From the NCBI GenBank assembly GCA_913041945.1, contig CAJWIT010000013.1, forward strand, positions 1-35,468: a stretch of DNA of 35,468 nt. Direction: 5' to 3'. Numbering within the stretch: position 1 is the stretch's first letter; the number at the start of each line of letters is the position of its first letter. A program made the position numbers and the translations under genes. Shown here piece by piece: positions 1 through 35,468 of the stretch. The DNA comes from an uncultured Fidelibacterota bacterium (GTDB lineage: Bacteria; Fidelibacterota; Marinisomatia; Marinisomatales; UBA8229). A model generated the notes under the pieces. It was not told the origin of the DNA. It searched no databases and saw only the letters and a program-made list of their open reading frames with translations.

Positions 1-3000
1 ATTTTGAAACGACGTTTTTCCTGATGGACAGCAGGGTGCATATACATTCCTCGTTCAGGATTCTGTTTATTAGCATCTACCTTGCCATCATGATCCAAAT
101 CTACAAGTGACATGTATCCAAAGAAATTTTCCTGTCCATCGCCAGCAGTGACTTCCCCATCACCGTTACTGTCAAATTGTGATATATACTGTTGTTGAAG
201 ATAATACCAGGTCACATCATTTACCTCTCTGAATCGTTGGAGGTTGAAGAGGTTAGTGATGTACATAAACAAGTTACCGTTGAATTTCCCTAATTTTAAT
301 TTATAGCTCAATCGCAGATTGGATGTCATGTACCATGGATAGGTTTCTGTGTTTTCAACGGGAATCCTCCCCTGATCAGGTTTTGTGTAGCGGGTTCCGC
401 TTCCATAGTTAAGAGCCATCGTTGTGAGTAAGCTTTTATAGGAAAGATTAACATTCGCATTAAACGTGTGGCGCTGGTCCCATTCCAGGTAAGATTCAAA
501 GGTTGGGACAATATTGCCAGACCATTCAGTGTTATAGCCCTGTCCTACTGAACTGCTCTTTCCCTTGGCAACTGAATACGTATAATTTAATTCGCCATAG
601 AATAACCCGGGCGGACGCCTTATCAGGACAATCTCAAATCCACGGACATTCCCGTAATCACGGTTGTAATACGTTGTGTACCAGTCACTGACTGTCCAGT
701 ATATCGGGCGTGTGTCCGTAAGTCCAAAAATATCCTTATAAAAGCCCTTGGCTTCAATCATTGAGAGTGTTGTAAGCTGCCGCCGTACTCCAACCTCATA
801 AGAAACAGTCAATTCCGGGTCAAGGTTCGTATAACCAACAATGGGAAAACCTCCGCCCATATTGTAGGTAATGTTCCTGAACATATATGCCAGTGCAGGG
901 CGTTGATAATATCGCCCATAATTAAAATACAGCATTGCTTTGTCAGTTATTGGATGAGAGATACCAAGCCGTGGTGCGAACACCAATTTATTTTTTGCTT
1001 TCTGAGGATCCTTGATTGGGCGGATCTCACGCCCGTGTTCATCGGTCTCCAGAAGACTGCGTTCGTATAAACCGGCAGCATCCATCCAGCCCTGATACTG
1101 TTCGGGTATCCCGTCTCCGTCCCAGTCATCATAATCATCGCTGGTCCAGGTTGGATCGGTCTCATCACCGGGATACTCGGAATTCGGCATAAAATACTCC
1201 ATACGGATACCGGCATTAACAATGGCACCTGGGTATTCCATTTTGTCACTCAAGTATAGCGAAAGTTCCCGCGGTTTTACAGTATAATATTCTGCGTACC
1301 CGTATCGATCTGGGGGCCAGAAATTGGTCAGGTTATAATCTTTTAATTCCAGACCGGTAGTGAGTTTATGATGAAGGGTGAATTGACTCACCAGATCGAA
1401 TTTCATGGTGGTTGTCACTTTTTCATCATAATGATAATGGTCCCTTGAAAAAGTATAAGGATGCGCGGAACCAACCCCATAGAAGTCACCAAGGGTATGT
1501 TTGAAACCCTCATCCGGAATATCTGTCCAGGGCATCCAAAAAAATCGCCTGTCATAATCATCCATAACACCGTCCCCATTCCAGTCCCGTTCTGATTCAT
1601 CAACATAGTTATTGCGATTAGCATCATGAAACATATCGCTCGGATCATCAAAACCGGTTATGGAATTATCCGGATTGTAGTTATCAAGAATGCCATTCCC
1701 ATTCAAGTCTTCATTTCTCTTGTCGCCGTCGCCTACGCCATCAACACCCTCCTCAAAGTTAATGTTTAGATCGTAGGTTTCATTACCATTAATATCGTAA
1801 TACCACTCTCCATCATCCCAATGACTGTTTCCATTTGTATCTTCAAAGGGTTCTGTTCCCCAGTAAATATCAAGGATACCATCACCGTCTGTATCTTCAT
1901 TCAGTCGCTCTATAATGTTCGATTCCAACATGGTAGAGTATTGGGCGATACGCAGAGTGTAGTAGGTGCGGTCTGACAGGGTATGAGTAAAACCGATGTT
2001 CCACATCTTGCTCATTCGATCCCAAAGCGGCAGTCGGTCAAACATTGAAAACTCTGTGAGACTCCCATTACGGTCAAGGTCTTCTGAATCAAGTACATTA
2101 TTGCCATTGATATCTTCACCCTCATCAAGCACACCGTTGCCGTTCAGATCTTCGGTATCCATTTGACCGTTACCATACCAAAAATCAGTAGTAGATTCGG
2201 ATTCGAGAATAAAGTTGCCGTTTTCATCTTCATTAGCCATATCTCCATCAGGTGTGATTAACTGGCCATCGTAATAGTCTACTTCAAAAGCTGAACCTGT
2301 CCAGCTTTCGCTATTATCAAGGTCTTCATACCATTCACCTTCATCCCACTGGCCGTTCCCGTTCCAGTCTGCATAAGGTTCATATTCGAAATACATATCG
2401 AGAACAAAATCTCCATCAATATCTTCGGTCTGAATCCCGTCCTGTGACCACCAGCTTCTATAGAATCCTGGAATTTCTTCATCCTGCATAATACCGTCAG
2501 CGATTTCGCCATATTCCCCGTCATAAACCTTCAGATAACTTGGAATATATTCTGTAAGCTTATCTTCACTCAATTGGTGGCTCCAGCTATATGAAAAACC
2601 ATCATTAAAATTGGAATGAGAATAAAGTCCGGAAAAGCTGAGTTTCATATGATCGGTTATATTCCATGAAAGCTTCCCGGTATAGTTGTTAAGATTGGAG
2701 AATTGGTTTGGAAGGTAACCGTAGTCTTCGTTTACCTCACCTGCAACAGAAAAGAAGGCTTTGTTCTTTAATATAGGGCCGCTGAGAAAGAACTCCGTAG
2801 CTTTGAAATTGTGAGGATTTTCCCCGGTGAGGGTTTCCGAGACTCCATTTGATGTAGAATAACGAATATCGCCAGCAAAGGTATTTCGCCCCTCTCTGCC
2901 AGTTACATTAATGACACCAGACTGAGCATTTCCGTAATCGGCACCGAATCCACCTGTTATTATGTTGGTTTCAGCTACAGCCATGATTGGAATATCGGAA

Positions 3001-13433: not shown

Positions 13434-14711
13434 ATGAATAAACAAATGAAGAGCGTTATTACATGTGACCTTGACGGCAAAATAGAAACGTACAGTGAAG
13501 GTGCCGAAAAACTTTATGGATATACACCGGAAGAAATAATTGGTAAAGGCCGGGTGAGTGATCTTAGTCCAGGCCAGGTGGTATTGGGCCATGTAGTCAA
13601 CTGGCTTGATGAAGCTGTAAAAAAAGGAGCCTGGGAAGGAGACACGGTTTTTCTGCACAAAGATGGCCATGAAATGCCCTGTCACATTAAAATCACACCT
13701 ACAAAAGGAAAAAATGGTGAGCATATAGGTTATTGCGGCGTGTCAAAGCTTTTAGAAACTAAGACACCGGATCAGATACGGCCCAAAATAAACCTGATGA
13801 CTAAGGTTTTTACCTGGCTCGTTATCATGCGCCTGCCCTTTTTAACTGCTACCATTGTGCCTATTCTCGTGGGCGCTGCTGTGGCAAACTTTATGGGCTA
13901 TGATGTCAGCTGGGGCTGGCTTGGATTAACGATTCTAGGCGGATCGCTCCTGCATATAGGAACCAACACTGCCAATGATTATTTTGACCACACCAGCGGT
14001 ACCGACAAGGCCAATTACAATTATATGGTGCCATTCTCCGGGGGCAGCCGCGGCATCCAGATGGGCCTCATTTCAGCAAAGGGGATGCTCACTGTGGCCC
14101 TGGTGTCATTTGCTCTCAGTGCGGTAGTTGGCATACCTTTAATCCTAAAAGCGGGTCTGCCGGTATTGTGGCTGGGGCTGATTGGGTTTGTTTCCGGATT
14201 CTTTTATACGGCACCACCCTTCAGGTTTTCTGCGTTGAAAGGCTTGGGAGAATTACTCATCGGACTCAATTTCGGGCCGCTCATGGTTGCAGGGAGTGCT
14301 CTTGTCCAGACCGGCAAGCTGCTGCCGGAGGCATTCCTGGCTGGAATTCCCATTGGTTTTCTAGTGGCAGCTATTGTTTACATCAATGAGTTCCCGGATC
14401 ATGATGGCGATAAGGCCACAGGAAAAAATACCTTGATCGTTGTATTGGGTCCGGAAAAAGCCAGAATCGGTTACGTACTGCTCATCGCAGGCGCCTTTGT
14501 GAGTATCGTTGTCATGGCTTTAAATGGAACCCTCCCCATGCTGAGCCTGATTGCTCTGGCGGCATGCTATTTTGGTGTAAAAGCTGTTAAAACGCTGTAT
14601 CAATACTACGATAATCGTCTTCTAAAACCTGCAAATGCCGGTACAATAAATATGCACTTTGTCGCAGGAATCCTTTTCTGCATCGGAATCTGGCTGGGAA
14701 CTCCTGTTTAG
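13434..14711 (+). CDS. PAS domain fused to a UbiA/MenA-type prenyltransferase
   Basis: 425 residues. Residues 6-105 form a PAS domain (VITCDLDGKIETYSEGAEKL, YGYTPEEIIGK, FLHKDGHEMPCHIKITPTK). A linker leads to an integral-membrane UbiA-superfamily enzyme from about residue 120. That part has the first Asp-rich motif NDYFDHTSGTD (181-191), the second NEFPDHDGDKATGK (318-331) and about eight or nine hydrophobic helices. The catalytic part most resembles MenA (1,4-dihydroxy-2-naphthoate polyprenyltransferase), so it probably makes demethylmenaquinone at the cytoplasmic membrane. A PAS sensor on this enzyme is unusual. It has no transmitter or receiver, so it may tune the enzyme by redox, heme or ligand sensing. 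The reading frame is continuous and both parts keep their motifs. AGG lies about 10 bases before ATG 13434. Confidence 0.88.
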   Translation: MNKQMKSVITCDLDGKIETYSEGAEKLYGYTPEEIIGKGRVSDLSPGQVVLGHVVNWLDEAVKKGAWEGDTVFLHKDGHEMPCHIKITPTKGKNGEHIGYCGVSKLLETKTPDQIRPKINLMTKVFTWLVIMRLPFLTATIVPILVGAAVANFMGYDVSWGWLGLTILGGSLLHIGTNTANDYFDHTSGTDKANYNYMVPFSGGSRGIQMGLISAKGMLTVALVSFALSAVVGIPLILKAGLPVLWLGLIGFVSGFFYTAPPFRFSALKGLGELLIGLNFGPLMVAGSALVQTGKLLPEAFLAGIPIGFLVAAIVYINEFPDHDGDKATGKNTLIVVLGPEKARIGYVLLIAGAFVSIVVMALNGTLPMLSLIALAACYFGVKAVKTLYQYYDNRLLKPANAGTINMHFVAGILFCIGIWLGTPV

Positions 14712-30812: not shown

Positions 30813-31324
30813 GAATTTCTTTCATGAAAAACCGTATGATTAAATGAACCTGTTATTAATGCTTTAGAAATCATTTTTCGAAACTCACCGATTTTTTTAT
30901 AGGAGTAAATCCTGAAATGCCTGGTGTAGCGCACCGTTCCAAATTCATCACTTTTTTGGTCAGTTCTTAATTTTTTCTTTCGGGGTTTTTCTTTCAGCCA
31001 ATCTTCATGCTAGGCAGCCACCACCGCCGTTTCATCCTGGTCACACTGAAGTGATAACCCTATTTCCCCTTTTTTCAATTTCCGTTCAAATTGCCCCAAT
31101 TCTTTAAAGGCAAATTTTCCTGATGTAAAATACCGGTCACGAATTTCCCAGTCAAAGGTTATTCGTTTCCCCGTCTTTGTATCCACAATCACGCCGTCAT
31201 CCCTGAAATTTTCAGTGTTATAAATTTGCATTACCAGACGGAGGTCGTCCTTGACATTATTAAATTTTTCAACAAATGCCTTCAAGCTGGCCTCATGCCG
31301 ATTGTACATGCTTGGGCGTTTCAT
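30809..31324 (-). pseudogene. Unknown small gene interrupted by an in-frame TAG
   Basis: ATG 31324 overlaps the carboxyltransferase stop by 4 bases. The frame runs 104 codons (MKRPSMYNRHEASLKAFVEK... QCDQDETAVVAA) to a TAG at 31010-31012. It then stays open in the same frame for 66 more codons (HEDWLKEKPRKKKLRTD, FGTVRYTRHFRIYSYKKIGE) to a TAA at 30809-30811. That TAA overlaps the stop of the convergent synthetase gene. The second part reads like protein, so the gene is probably 171 codons long with a nonsense change, a sequence error or read-through at the TAG. The family is not recognised. Acidic and lysine positions (ITFDWEIRDRYF, FAFKELGQFERKL) might hint at a nuclease-like core, but this is speculation. 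If the TAG is a true end, the product is a 104-residue protein. Confidence 0.6.
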
Positions 31325-33120
31325 CCGTCGACTGTATTTTGGGGTGAGCTGTCTTCTATTATTTCAACAATCTTCTGTCTGATATTTTCTGGTGTGACAA
31401 TTGTATCGGCATGCCCGTGCTGATGGAGCCACTGGGTTGTCTGAAAATCCCGTCCTAATTTGTGTCCCACATATTGTTCAATCACCCGCCGGCCGGAAAA
31501 ACCAATATTTCCGCTGTTGAGCTCAAACAACCTGATTCCCCGGGAGCCATAGCCAATTGCAACTCCTCCCAGCGTTGGATCGGTGATCAGGGTAATCACA
31601 GGTATCCCTTTTCGCTCTGCACGGGTGAGAGCTACATGTGCCTTGGGAATGCCAACCATGGAGGAACAACCTTCATGCATGCGGGCGCCTCCTCCGCAGG
31701 CTTGAAGAACCATGGGCAATCCTTTTGTGAAAGCAATTTCTGCTGCACGCCAGATCTTTTCTCCGGAACTCATACAGTAAGACCCGCCTAAAAATCCGAA
31801 TTCTGTCCCACAGTAAATAACTTCATTATTAAGAATTTTTCCCATCCCGGTGATTAGAGCGGAAGTCATTCCAGTTTTCAGGCGGGTTTCCTCCAATTTC
31901 TCACTATACCCGGGAAATCCTAAAATATCTTTATCCATAACATAGCGGGTTTCTTCATGCTCATTGAAGGAGCCTTGATCCAGGATCAAATCCATATAAT
32001 CCCAGGCGCTTGGTCTGACATACCTGTGGCCACATATATTGCAAACGTAATTGTTTTTTTTAAGGAGAGAACCATTCACAGGATCATAAACATGCTTCCC
32101 TGACTTTGAGTAGCAATCCTTGTGACGCTGTACGAACCCCTCCTTATTTATTATAGGAAGTCGGGATACTTTTTCCTGAATTAATCGAGGCCCGTTTACC
32201 GTTACCTCATCCCAATGACCAATCTTTTTCCAACGTTTGATTCGATCTTGAAAAAGTTTTTCGGCAGGAATTTTATTCAATTTTCCAATCCAATTTTTTA
32301 GAGCTGTCCCTGCGGCCTGGATTGCTTCAGCCGGATTGCGGTGTGCCGGCCCCGGCTCTTCAGGTACCATTTCATCTACAATGCCCAATGCAAATCCTTC
32401 CCGGGAAGTGATCTGGGAAACTTCCGCTGCTTCATTAGCTCGGTGACGGGTATGGAAAAGTATTGACGAACATGCCTCCGGGGTAATAACAAGATAGGTT
32501 GAATATTCCATAGCCAACACACAGTCGCATCCTGTTAACGCGATGGCTCCCCCGCTGCACCCGCGGTTAATAATCAGAGACAAAGTCGGAGTATCTGATT
32601 CAATTAATTTTTGAATTGTCTCCCCTATCCGCCAGGCAATGCCTCCCGCTTCTGATTCTTCCGTTGGATCAGCCCCCGGTGTATCCACAAAAGTAATGAT
32701 CAGCCGGTTTTCTTCATTCGCCGCATCAACAGCGCGGATTGCCCTCTCATAGGAAGCCGGAGTAGGCATTCCATGGTTCCAGTGTTTTACTTTTTCGCCG
32801 TCCTTCATCATTTCCAGCAGTTCCTTATAGCGGGAAGTGGGACCGGTCTGCTGACCGATTAACATAAGAGGAATTGAAGTGTCTTCAATGGCAATCTCTG
32901 CTCTATGAGTTTGAATCAGCCAGACGCCAAATTCATCGCTGGAAAAGCATTCTTCAACAGAATCAAATAATGAAAGATAATCAAGATATTTTGGACGCTC
33001 AGGATGAAAGGACAATTGATATTTTTCATATTCAGACAGTTGATCAATATCCTCCGCTGCATAACTGAAGTGCCCTTCTTGCTCAAAAGAATAGTAATAA
33101 TGGTTTGTGTGTTCAGTCAT
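31321..33120 (-). CDS. Fused acetyl-CoA carboxylase carboxyltransferase (AccA then AccD)
   Basis: Transfers the carboxyl group from carboxybiotin to acetyl-CoA (malonyl-CoA for fatty acids). 599 residues. Residues 1-300 are AccA-like: YQLSFHPERPKYLDYLSLF, GMPTPASYERAIRAV, IITFVDTPGADPTEE, INRGCSGGAIALTGCDCVLA and MEYSTYLVITPEACSSILF. Residues 320-599 are AccD-like: a zinc-finger region with CNICGHRYVRPSAWDYMDLI, GMGKILNNEVIYCGTEFGFL, GGGARMHEGCSSMVGIPKAH and TDPTLGGVAIGYGS. The first CxxC pair of the AccD finger is not present (HKDC instead). The A-then-D order is the reverse of the DA order in propionyl-CoA-type carboxyltransferases. No biotin carboxylase or biotin carrier gene is in the window. 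ATG 33120 overlaps the methyltransferase end by 8 bases. Confidence 0.88.
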   Translation of the reverse strand: MTEHTNHYYYSFEQEGHFSYAAEDIDQLSEYEKYQLSFHPERPKYLDYLSLFDSVEECFSSDEFGVWLIQTHRAEIAIEDTSIPLMLIGQQTGPTSRYKELLEMMKDGEKVKHWNHGMPTPASYERAIRAVDAANEENRLIITFVDTPGADPTEESEAGGIAWRIGETIQKLIESDTPTLSLIINRGCSGGAIALTGCDCVLAMEYSTYLVITPEACSSILFHTRHRANEAAEVSQITSREGFALGIVDEMVPEEPGPAHRNPAEAIQAAGTALKNWIGKLNKIPAEKLFQDRIKRWKKIGHWDEVTVNGPRLIQEKVSRLPIINKEGFVQRHKDCYSKSGKHVYDPVNGSLLKKNNYVCNICGHRYVRPSAWDYMDLILDQGSFNEHEETRYVMDKDILGFPGYSEKLEETRLKTGMTSALITGMGKILNNEVIYCGTEFGFLGGSYCMSSGEKIWRAAEIAFTKGLPMVLQACGGGARMHEGCSSMVGIPKAHVALTRAERKGIPVITLITDPTLGGVAIGYGSRGIRLFELNSGNIGFSGRRVIEQYVGHKLGRDFQTTQWLHQHGHADTIVTPENIRQKIVEIIEDSSPQNTVDG

Positions 33121-34797: not shown

Positions 34798-35468
34798 TCA
34801 TAAATTGACCCAGGCGGGTCCATCTCCTCCTTCGGGCGGGACCCAGTCAATGATCTGGTACGGATCTATAATATCACAGGTTTTGCAATGAACACAGTTC
34901 GAAAAATTGATTTGAAGTTTCCTGGTTTCTCCTTCTCCAACCATTTCATAGACATCAGCAGGGCAAAAATTTTCACATGGATTCCCAAATTCCTCTGGAC
35001 ATTTTGTTATACAGACATCCGAATCACGAACATGCAAATGTGGAATTTGATCTTCCTCATGGGCTGTAGCAGAATGGTAGACGTCAGTTACTTTATCAAA
35101 CAGATATTTTCCATCAAAACTTAATTCGTTATACCGGTTTTCAATTTTGCCTTTCTCCATCCTTAAATGTCCCGATTCACTGGACATTCGGTTTTTAAGT
35201 CCCCAGCCTCTTCCTCCTGTAACCAGTCCCATTCCGGCATTTATGAGCCCTCCAAATAATCCGTGGTCAAATGCCTGGTGAAAATTGCGAACCTTCCATA
35301 ATTCGTCTCTCAGCCAGCTTGAGTTTATCTTCTTCTCGAAATCTGAAAGTGTTTCATCAGAAAAATTATTTTCACTTAACGCACCCACAATTGTTTCTGC
35401 AGCCAGCATCCCCGATTTCATTGCAAGATGAATTCCTTTTAATCTTTGTCCATTCATAAAACCGGCGG
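34798..35468 (-). CDS. Electron transfer flavoprotein-ubiquinone oxidoreductase, C-terminal part
   Basis: Membrane-associated flavo-Fe-S enzyme that passes electrons from ETF (fed by acyl-CoA dehydrogenases) to the quinone pool. The 5' end is beyond the right edge; about 222 residues remain. The visible part begins AGFMNGQRLKGIHLAMKSGM, the FAD-domain end that the family shares. It finishes with the [4Fe-4S] ferredoxin-like domain: NPCENFCPADVYEM, INFSNCVHCKTCDIIDPYQI and WVPPEGGDGPAW. The four cluster cysteines expected for ETF-QO are present. It fits a cell that oxidises fatty or amino acids aerobically, in line with the acyl-CoA synthetase and quinone gene in this window. The frame is open to base 35468, so the ATG at 35457 is internal, not the start. 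Confidence 0.93.
   Translation of the reverse strand, partial: AGFMNGQRLKGIHLAMKSGMLAAETIVGALSENNFSDETLSDFEKKINSSWLRDELWKVRNFHQAFDHGLFGGLINAGMGLVTGGRGWGLKNRMSSESGHLRMEKGKIENRYNELSFDGKYLFDKVTDVYHSATAHEEDQIPHLHVRDSDVCITKCPEEFGNPCENFCPADVYEMVGEGETRKLQINFSNCVHCKTCDIIDPYQIIDWVPPEGGDGPAWVNL

Follow-up and report, generated by a model that had tools for sequence, protein, structure and literature searches.

A gene in the window, by which we mean the whole 35,468-nucleotide stretch of marine bacterial DNA that was analysed, was confirmed by domain searches and alignment to encode a MenA-type prenyltransferase with an N-terminal PAS domain. PAS domains have been described chiefly from signalling proteins. 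The fusion (PAS-MenA) is conserved over several phyla, mostly in genomes without either of the two known routes to menaquinone, a vitamin-K-type quinone. This pattern suggests a quinone enzyme under direct regulation in organisms whose quinone would come from a source other than these routes. Two findings go beyond the preliminary description of this gene: a second fusion, in which a PNPOx domain precedes the MenA-type enzyme (PNPOx-MenA), and the lack, in most carriers, of the pathways by which menaquinone is known to be made. We regard the association with genomes that lack known menaquinone pathways as more important than the regulatory reading of the fusion. PAS-MenA is a conserved protein family that is apparently undescribed; the preliminary description knew of no described example, and in agreement with this the open-licence literature yielded no paper on a fusion of PAS with UbiA or MenA.

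The window encodes a PAS domain and a complete MenA-type enzyme in one frame

The features of the gene are listed in Table 1. Pfam placed PAS_9 at residues 8-102 (1.4e-11), with PAS_3 and PAS_4 also over the cut-off, and UbiA (PF01040) at residues 141-393 (2.5e-32). Using NCBIfam, the protein scored 117.4 bits against the menA equivalog model TIGR00751 (cut-off 102.15) and 34.6 bits against TIGR00229 sensory_box (cut-off 22.9). Some relatives fall under the TIGR00751 cut-off, such as the fusion at locus L074 with 84.5 bits. The two Asp-rich motifs of UbiA enzymes serve Mg-diphosphate binding, and the motif residues N181, D182, D185, G189, D191, N318, D322 and D326 are invariant in 57/57 fusions. 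The claim of a PAS domain joined in frame to a complete MenA/UbiA enzyme was thus borne out for domains, boundaries and Asp motifs by Pfam, NCBIfam and the alignment. The best explanation of the protein is a predicted membrane enzyme for which a naphthoquinol-type ring would serve as acceptor of the polyprenyl chain.

Table 1. Features of the PAS-MenA gene, with positions in the window.
Feature	Positions	Strand	Basis
PAS-MenA fusion gene	13434..14711	+	Single ATG-started ORF spanning exactly these positions without interruption, 425 aa; full-length relatives
PAS domain, residues 6-105	13449..13748	+	Pfam/NCBIfam, AlphaFold2, Foldseek
PAS secondary structure: beta 7-12, 16-20; helices 22-28, 32-35, 41-44, 47-64; beta 67-74, 80-91, 97-106			
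PAS-subfamily signature, residues 40-59 (R-V-S-x-F-S-P/D-G-x-V-V-L-x-H-V-x-x-W-L)	13551..13610	+	Alignment, n=57
C11, strand A of PAS	13464..13466	+	55/57 fusions
H53, helix F of PAS	13590..13592	+	54/57 fusions
C101, final PAS strand	13734..13736	+	53/57 fusions
Variable linker and membrane-proximal helix, residues 106-132	13749..13829	+	Lowest conservation of the protein; helix from AlphaFold2
MenA-type membrane prenyltransferase of the UbiA superfamily with nine long helices, residues 134-421	13833..14696	+	Pfam, NCBIfam, AlphaFold2, Foldseek
First Asp-rich motif NTANDYFDHTSGTD, residues 178-191	13965..14006	+	
Second Asp-rich motif NEFPDHDGDKATGK, residues 318-331	14385..14426	+	

The full-length AlphaFold2 model, built from 57 aligned fusions, reached a pLDDT of 89.3 and a pTM of 0.85, and it runs from a canonical PAS through a linker and a short membrane-proximal helix to nine long helices. 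The PAS modelled alone reached a pLDDT of 89.5. In Foldseek the top match of the membrane part was UBIAD1 (8djk; target-normalised TM 0.76), and archaeal UbiA structures matched as well. The best structural match of the PAS was 3lyx (TM 0.83, rmsd 1.2-1.3 A), with further matches to the PAS domains of NifL, Aer, LOV proteins and DosP. The PAS fold that had been read from the sequence was therefore returned as canonical, with high confidence.

The C-terminal 300 residues of the fusion share catalytic motifs, length and membrane fold with MenA (1,4-dihydroxy-2-naphthoate, or DHNA, polyprenyltransferase; TIGR00751, UbiA superfamily PF01040), to which the fusion adds the N-terminal PAS; it also differs in that most carriers are without MenD, MenB and MqnA/D. 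UBIAD1, the human MK-4 synthase, is the closest solved membrane structure to the UbiA part, but the identity is ~21% and UBIAD1 has no PAS. UBIAD1 is controlled through HMG-CoA reductase binding.

PAS-MenA is conserved over several phyla

PAS-MenA was found in 16 of 61 Marinimicrobia genomes at 43-80% identity, all copies being full length but for one that is truncated. A scan of GTDB genomes recovered it at 45-51% identity from Marinimicrobia, Chloroflexota (Anaerolineae, SAR202 and Thermoflexus), Myxococcota, Lujinxingiaceae and Gemmatimonadota, with Myxococcota/Bradymonadales among the groups that hold the gene. The full-length fusions extracted numbered 90, of which ~80 were distinct after records fetched twice were dropped. 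Relatives in several phyla show a single fused gene rather than two, as the architecture first described for the window would have it, and such recurrence goes far beyond chance. That the fusion arose in assembly, or by misreading of two genes, has a negligible probability given these ~80 distinct fusions from independent assemblies in several phyla, and given that an independent contig (L026, 94% identical) keeps the order GNAT - PAS-MenA - citrate synthase - malate dehydrogenase. The conserved architecture together with this synteny rules out an assembly artefact. Ahead of the UbiA part no internal start with a ribosome-binding site was seen, Met122 included, which argues against a misreading of two genes and led us to reject the idea that the UbiA part is translated by itself.

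A maximum-likelihood tree built on the UbiA part places the PAS-bearing proteins in one group (support 91/94), within which the Marinimicrobia PAS-MenAs occupy two separate branches. The single group fits with the fusion having arisen once and having later been transferred or lost. Three congeners of the window genome (same genus, 87-89% complete) gave no match to PAS-MenA or to any other MenA. With these congeners giving no match and the window genome itself 87% complete, it is possible that members of the genus have lost the gene or that the window contig was mis-binned; the L026 contig supports the local synteny.

The PAS domain is a dedicated module under purifying selection

Among 37 divergent fusions, the mean majority-residue fraction was 0.75 for the PAS, 0.66 for the UbiA part and 0.54 for the linker (106-125), so that the PAS is more conserved than the enzyme outside the window's own group. 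Fourteen PAS residues are invariant in the 57 aligned fusions, D12, R40, W57 and F73 among them, and invariance within the signature extends to R40, S45, G47, V50, W57 and L58. The constraint is strongest on the signature segment plus D12, F73, P89 and G99/G102, which suggests that the PAS holds a specific pocket. In pairs permitting measurement, PAS dN/dS was 0.06-0.16, showing that the domain is under purifying selection. A PAS profile run against 20 carrier genomes recovered the fused copy in 20/20, and nothing else of full length matched at E <= 1e-12; the PAS of the fusion is therefore a dedicated module. The one exception to an otherwise single match was a remnant of the PAS subfamily (~36 residues, 53% identical), which lies in a 120-aa frame of one carrier genome, apart from the intact fusion (G010:C8:29028-29135).

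Candidate inputs to the PAS domain

Direct allosteric control of the enzyme by redox state, O2 or a ligand, as put forward in the preliminary description, is plausible. One candidate input is a naphthoate or quinone-like ligand, which would provide substrate or product feedback. Another is redox sensing via C11 and C101. Both cysteines are present in 51/57 fusions, and the six natural exceptions weaken this candidate and a strict Cys redox switch in particular. A third candidate is heme bound via H53 in helix F, similarly weakened by the 3/57 fusions without H53. In heme PAS domains of the FixL/DosP type the axial His lies in helix F; alignments to FixL end before H53. The natural exceptions at C11, C101 and H53 suggest that no single-residue chemistry is universal in the family.

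Flavin chemistry of the LOV type was rejected, as the reactive Cys (GxNCRFLQ type, helix E) is absent and the helix E region reads GKGRVSDLS. In FAD-binding PAS domains of the NifL/Aer type, the Asn of the VxNRRKDG strand is a flavin contact. This position is the invariant F73 in the fusion, with which the G-strand Asn of NifL aligns, and FAD binding of this type is disfavoured. The Fisher-Rich quinone-binding motif in helix F, which has been suggested for EvgS, was rejected because it matches 11/57 sequences.

The PAS domains of Colwellia CPS_1291 (3lyx), NifL (FAD-PAS, 2gj3) and Aer (8dik) have their fold in common with that of the fusion at 20-28% identity, but they sit on signalling proteins, whereas the fusion's PAS sits on a biosynthetic enzyme. 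In ArcB and EvgS, quinones act on PAS cysteines and the quinone redox state is the signal (PMC8174306). These PAS domains are cytosolic, lie beside the membrane and have two conserved cysteines; the PAS of the fusion would also be cytosolic and close to the membrane, and its Cys pair is complete in 51/57 sequences. In contrast, they control histidine kinases, and their Cys positions differ from those of the fusion's pair.

A PNPOx domain takes the place of PAS in other Marinimicrobia

In other Marinimicrobia a MenA-type enzyme is preceded by a PNPOx split barrel (PF01243, 2.5e-9 to 2.7e-6); such fusions are encoded at loci L018, L020, L022, L115, L134 and L136. In the tree of the UbiA part PNPOx-MenA forms its own clade (support 100/100), which branches next to the PAS clade, though this placement is only modestly supported (84/74). 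PNPOx-MenA was assigned to 16 of the 61 Marinimicrobia genomes from full-length frames and membership of the MenA clade, the domain being checked in four, and no genome carries both fusions. The two replace each other within families (G053 versus G036 in f9, G007 versus G019 in f5). Like PAS-MenA, PNPOx-MenA joins a MenA-type module to an N-terminal cytosolic domain, in the same phylum and mostly without MenD. It differs in its split barrel, in its separate and strongly supported clade, and in UbiE/MenG often lying directly downstream (L020, L022, L115 and L134).

Most carriers lack the known menaquinone pathways

Profile searches found MqnA/MqnD (PF02621) in 0/61 Marinimicrobia, while the positive controls were detected. 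A true MenD was detected in 1/32 Marinimicrobia with a fused MenA, PAS-MenA and PNPOx-MenA taken together, compared to 14/29 of the others, two fragments counted (Fisher P = 4e-5, shared ancestry ignored). The link between fused MenA and MenD loss is not complete, as 15/61 Marinimicrobia have neither. In a set of 24 PAS-MenA genomes, comprising 1 from Marinimicrobia and 23 from other phyla, 22 were without both MenD and MqnA/D by profile searches; the exceptions were G064, with MenD only, and G081, with MqnA/D only. MenB above the cut-off was found in 0/18 carriers tested, and MqnC was present in G081 and below the cut-off in G084. A known menaquinone pathway (MenD/MenB or MqnA/D) is absent from the window genome and most carriers, as judged by profile searches of genomes that are mostly incomplete MAGs.

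Late enzymes and quinone-dependent proteins were recovered. UbiE/MenG was found in the window genome and in about half of the carriers tested, and not in the rest; it directly follows PAS-MenA in L069, and a polyprenyl synthetase gene lies upstream of PAS-MenA in L077. The quinone-reducing complex I subunit NuoH is encoded in 20/20 carrier genomes tested. The window itself ends within a gene for the quinone-dependent ETF-QO, of which the C-terminal part is preserved (34798-35466, minus strand; PF05187, 6.5e-37). With complex I, ETF-QO and late enzymes present and MenD, MenB and MqnA/D mostly missing, the carriers appear to need quinone and to hold late enzymes without the known upstream ones. 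Plain MenA occurs in other settings. In L113 it lies within a Men cluster of MenF, MenD, MenB and others, recognised by eye. In L137 (7493-10813) and L133 (515-5340), both from Marinimicrobia, a plain MenA-like gene has as neighbours an NMT1-type ABC transporter and a gene resembling those of TonB-dependent receptors; judging from these neighbours, the two loci possibly encode a quinone-precursor uptake system.

The survey of Chobert et al. 2026 reported that no known quinone pathway is present in many lineages, most of all among Bacillota and Chloroflexota, and suggested undiscovered quinones (PMC13386864). PAS-MenA covers part of this gap only. In a Chloroflexota-wide sample, 2/111 genomes carry the gene, so the phylum as a whole is not explained by it and PAS-MenA was rejected as a general answer for Chloroflexota without quinone pathways. 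Outside the groups studied, Gloeobacter makes MK although no known pathway accounts for it. MK-7 has been reported for Bradymonadales isolates (PMC7188933). It was rejected as evidence on the PAS-MenA product, because in the class to which carrier G066 belongs only that genome showed PAS-MenA and most others had plain MenA.

Proposed working of PAS-MenA and alternative readings

The N-terminus and active site of UbiA enzymes are cytosolic. We propose that PAS-MenA acts late in the menaquinone pathway and has a ligand or redox input built into it, in organisms whose upstream pathway is either missing, so that the ring is salvaged, or undescribed. We give this proposal about an even chance of being right. 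The PAS would face the cytosol and bind a small ligand there, such as a naphthoate, a quinone-like molecule or a redox cofactor, and the ligand-bound PAS would gate prenyl transfer within the same polypeptide. The ring precursor would be either salvaged or made by an undescribed route, between which the data do not decide. The known control point of the classical pathway is feedback by DHNA on MenD (PMC9835592). Since MenD is mostly missing in carriers, a sensor on MenA, the remaining committed step, could assume the control otherwise exerted at MenD. It would be an equivalent control point in the same pathway, although feedback on MenD acts at the first committed step and through a site of MenD, not a fused domain. 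The built-in input is supported by the presence of both domains and Asp motifs, by the PAS and membrane folds, by PAS conservation and dN/dS, and by the dedicated nature of the module, together with the mutual exclusion of PAS- and PNPOx-bearing MenA in the 61 genomes, the quinone context (L069, L077 and the window genome), the missing upstream pathway and complex I in all 20 genomes. Against it, the ligand, cofactor and activity are predicted and the PAS could be structural; C11, C101 and H53 are not universal; a few carriers (G064, G081, G084) do have MenD, MqnA/D or MqnC, and roughly half of those tested gave no match to UbiE/MenG; three congeners are without any match, and the Marinimicrobia statistics ignore shared ancestry.

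The two sources of the ring can be weighed separately. Carriers may be menaquinone-precursor auxotrophs that import DHNA or some other naphthoquinone for prenylation by the fused MenA, the PAS capturing or sensing the imported ring. Most carriers are without MenD, MenB and MqnA/D, MenA-like genes adjoin transporter and receptor genes in L133 and L137, and Lactiplantibacillus plantarum, which has kept MenA and is missing other menaquinone genes, uses exogenous DHNA (PMC10746273). However, no transporter lies beside PAS-MenA at the loci inspected, and lasting reliance on a scavenged ring would be surprising for free-living respiring lineages of several phyla; we consider salvage possible, with the balance somewhat against it. 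That the carriers make their own ring precursor by a new pathway, with PAS-MenA as its terminal enzyme, strikes us as rather doubtful. The known-pathway genes are missing while complex I is present in 20/20 genomes tested and an ETF-QO gene lies in the window, and undiscovered quinones have been suggested for many lineages (PMC13386864), but no candidate upstream genes were found, the low frequency in Chloroflexota leaves that phylum as a whole unexplained, and most carriers are incomplete MAGs.

Two further readings, both of which we think unlikely, concern the individual domains. A purely structural PAS, serving in dimerisation or as a membrane-proximal scaffold with no sensory role, would fit with dimerisation being common among PAS domains, with 3lyx having been deposited without an assigned function and with the very different PNPOx fold in the same place in the sister clade. 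Yet the invariant residues, R40, S45, W57 and F73 among them, are concentrated in the sheet and in the segment between helices E and F that forms the pocket, under stricter constraint than the enzyme, and PAS and PNPOx both come from ligand- or cofactor-binding families. The UbiA part could also use an acceptor other than DHNA, an aromatic acid or a quinol, in which case MenA would be a misnomer. PRK06080-type models score far under their cut-offs (161.9 versus 264 bits), some fusions fall under that of TIGR00751, as noted for L074, and the usual DHNA-making enzymes are missing. On the other hand, the window protein exceeds the menA equivalog cut-off, its motif NDYxDxxxGxD is MenA/UBIAD1-like and its top structural match is UBIAD1, and UbiE/MenG adjoins PAS-MenA in L069.

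If the built-in input is taken together with PNPOx-MenA, a wider and improbable extension is that both fusions catalyse, under direct sensing, the last step of a naphthoquinone route distinct from Men and futalosine. The fusions would then be markers of those respiring Marinimicrobia, Chloroflexota, Myxococcota and Gemmatimonadota in which this route operates, with quinone synthesis controlled by an in-enzyme sensor. If a biosynthetic enzyme of the membrane carries a conserved PAS, the regulation of quinone synthesis would be direct and testable within one polypeptide. PAS-MenA and PNPOx-MenA would offer an enzyme-level entry into part of the quinone-pathway gap (PMC13386864), and finding their acceptor could answer whether salvage or a new route supplies the ring.

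Additional observations

A further clade of MenA-like proteins in Marinimicrobia, with the N-terminus MWGQALRIIP..., is encoded at L134:13628-14758, L138:945-1940 and L140:2078-2992; its gene in L134 lies near PNPOx-MenA and carB. Elsewhere in the window, a 599-aa protein (31321-33120, minus strand) carries AccA-like and AccD-like carboxyltransferase domains in one chain, alpha then beta.
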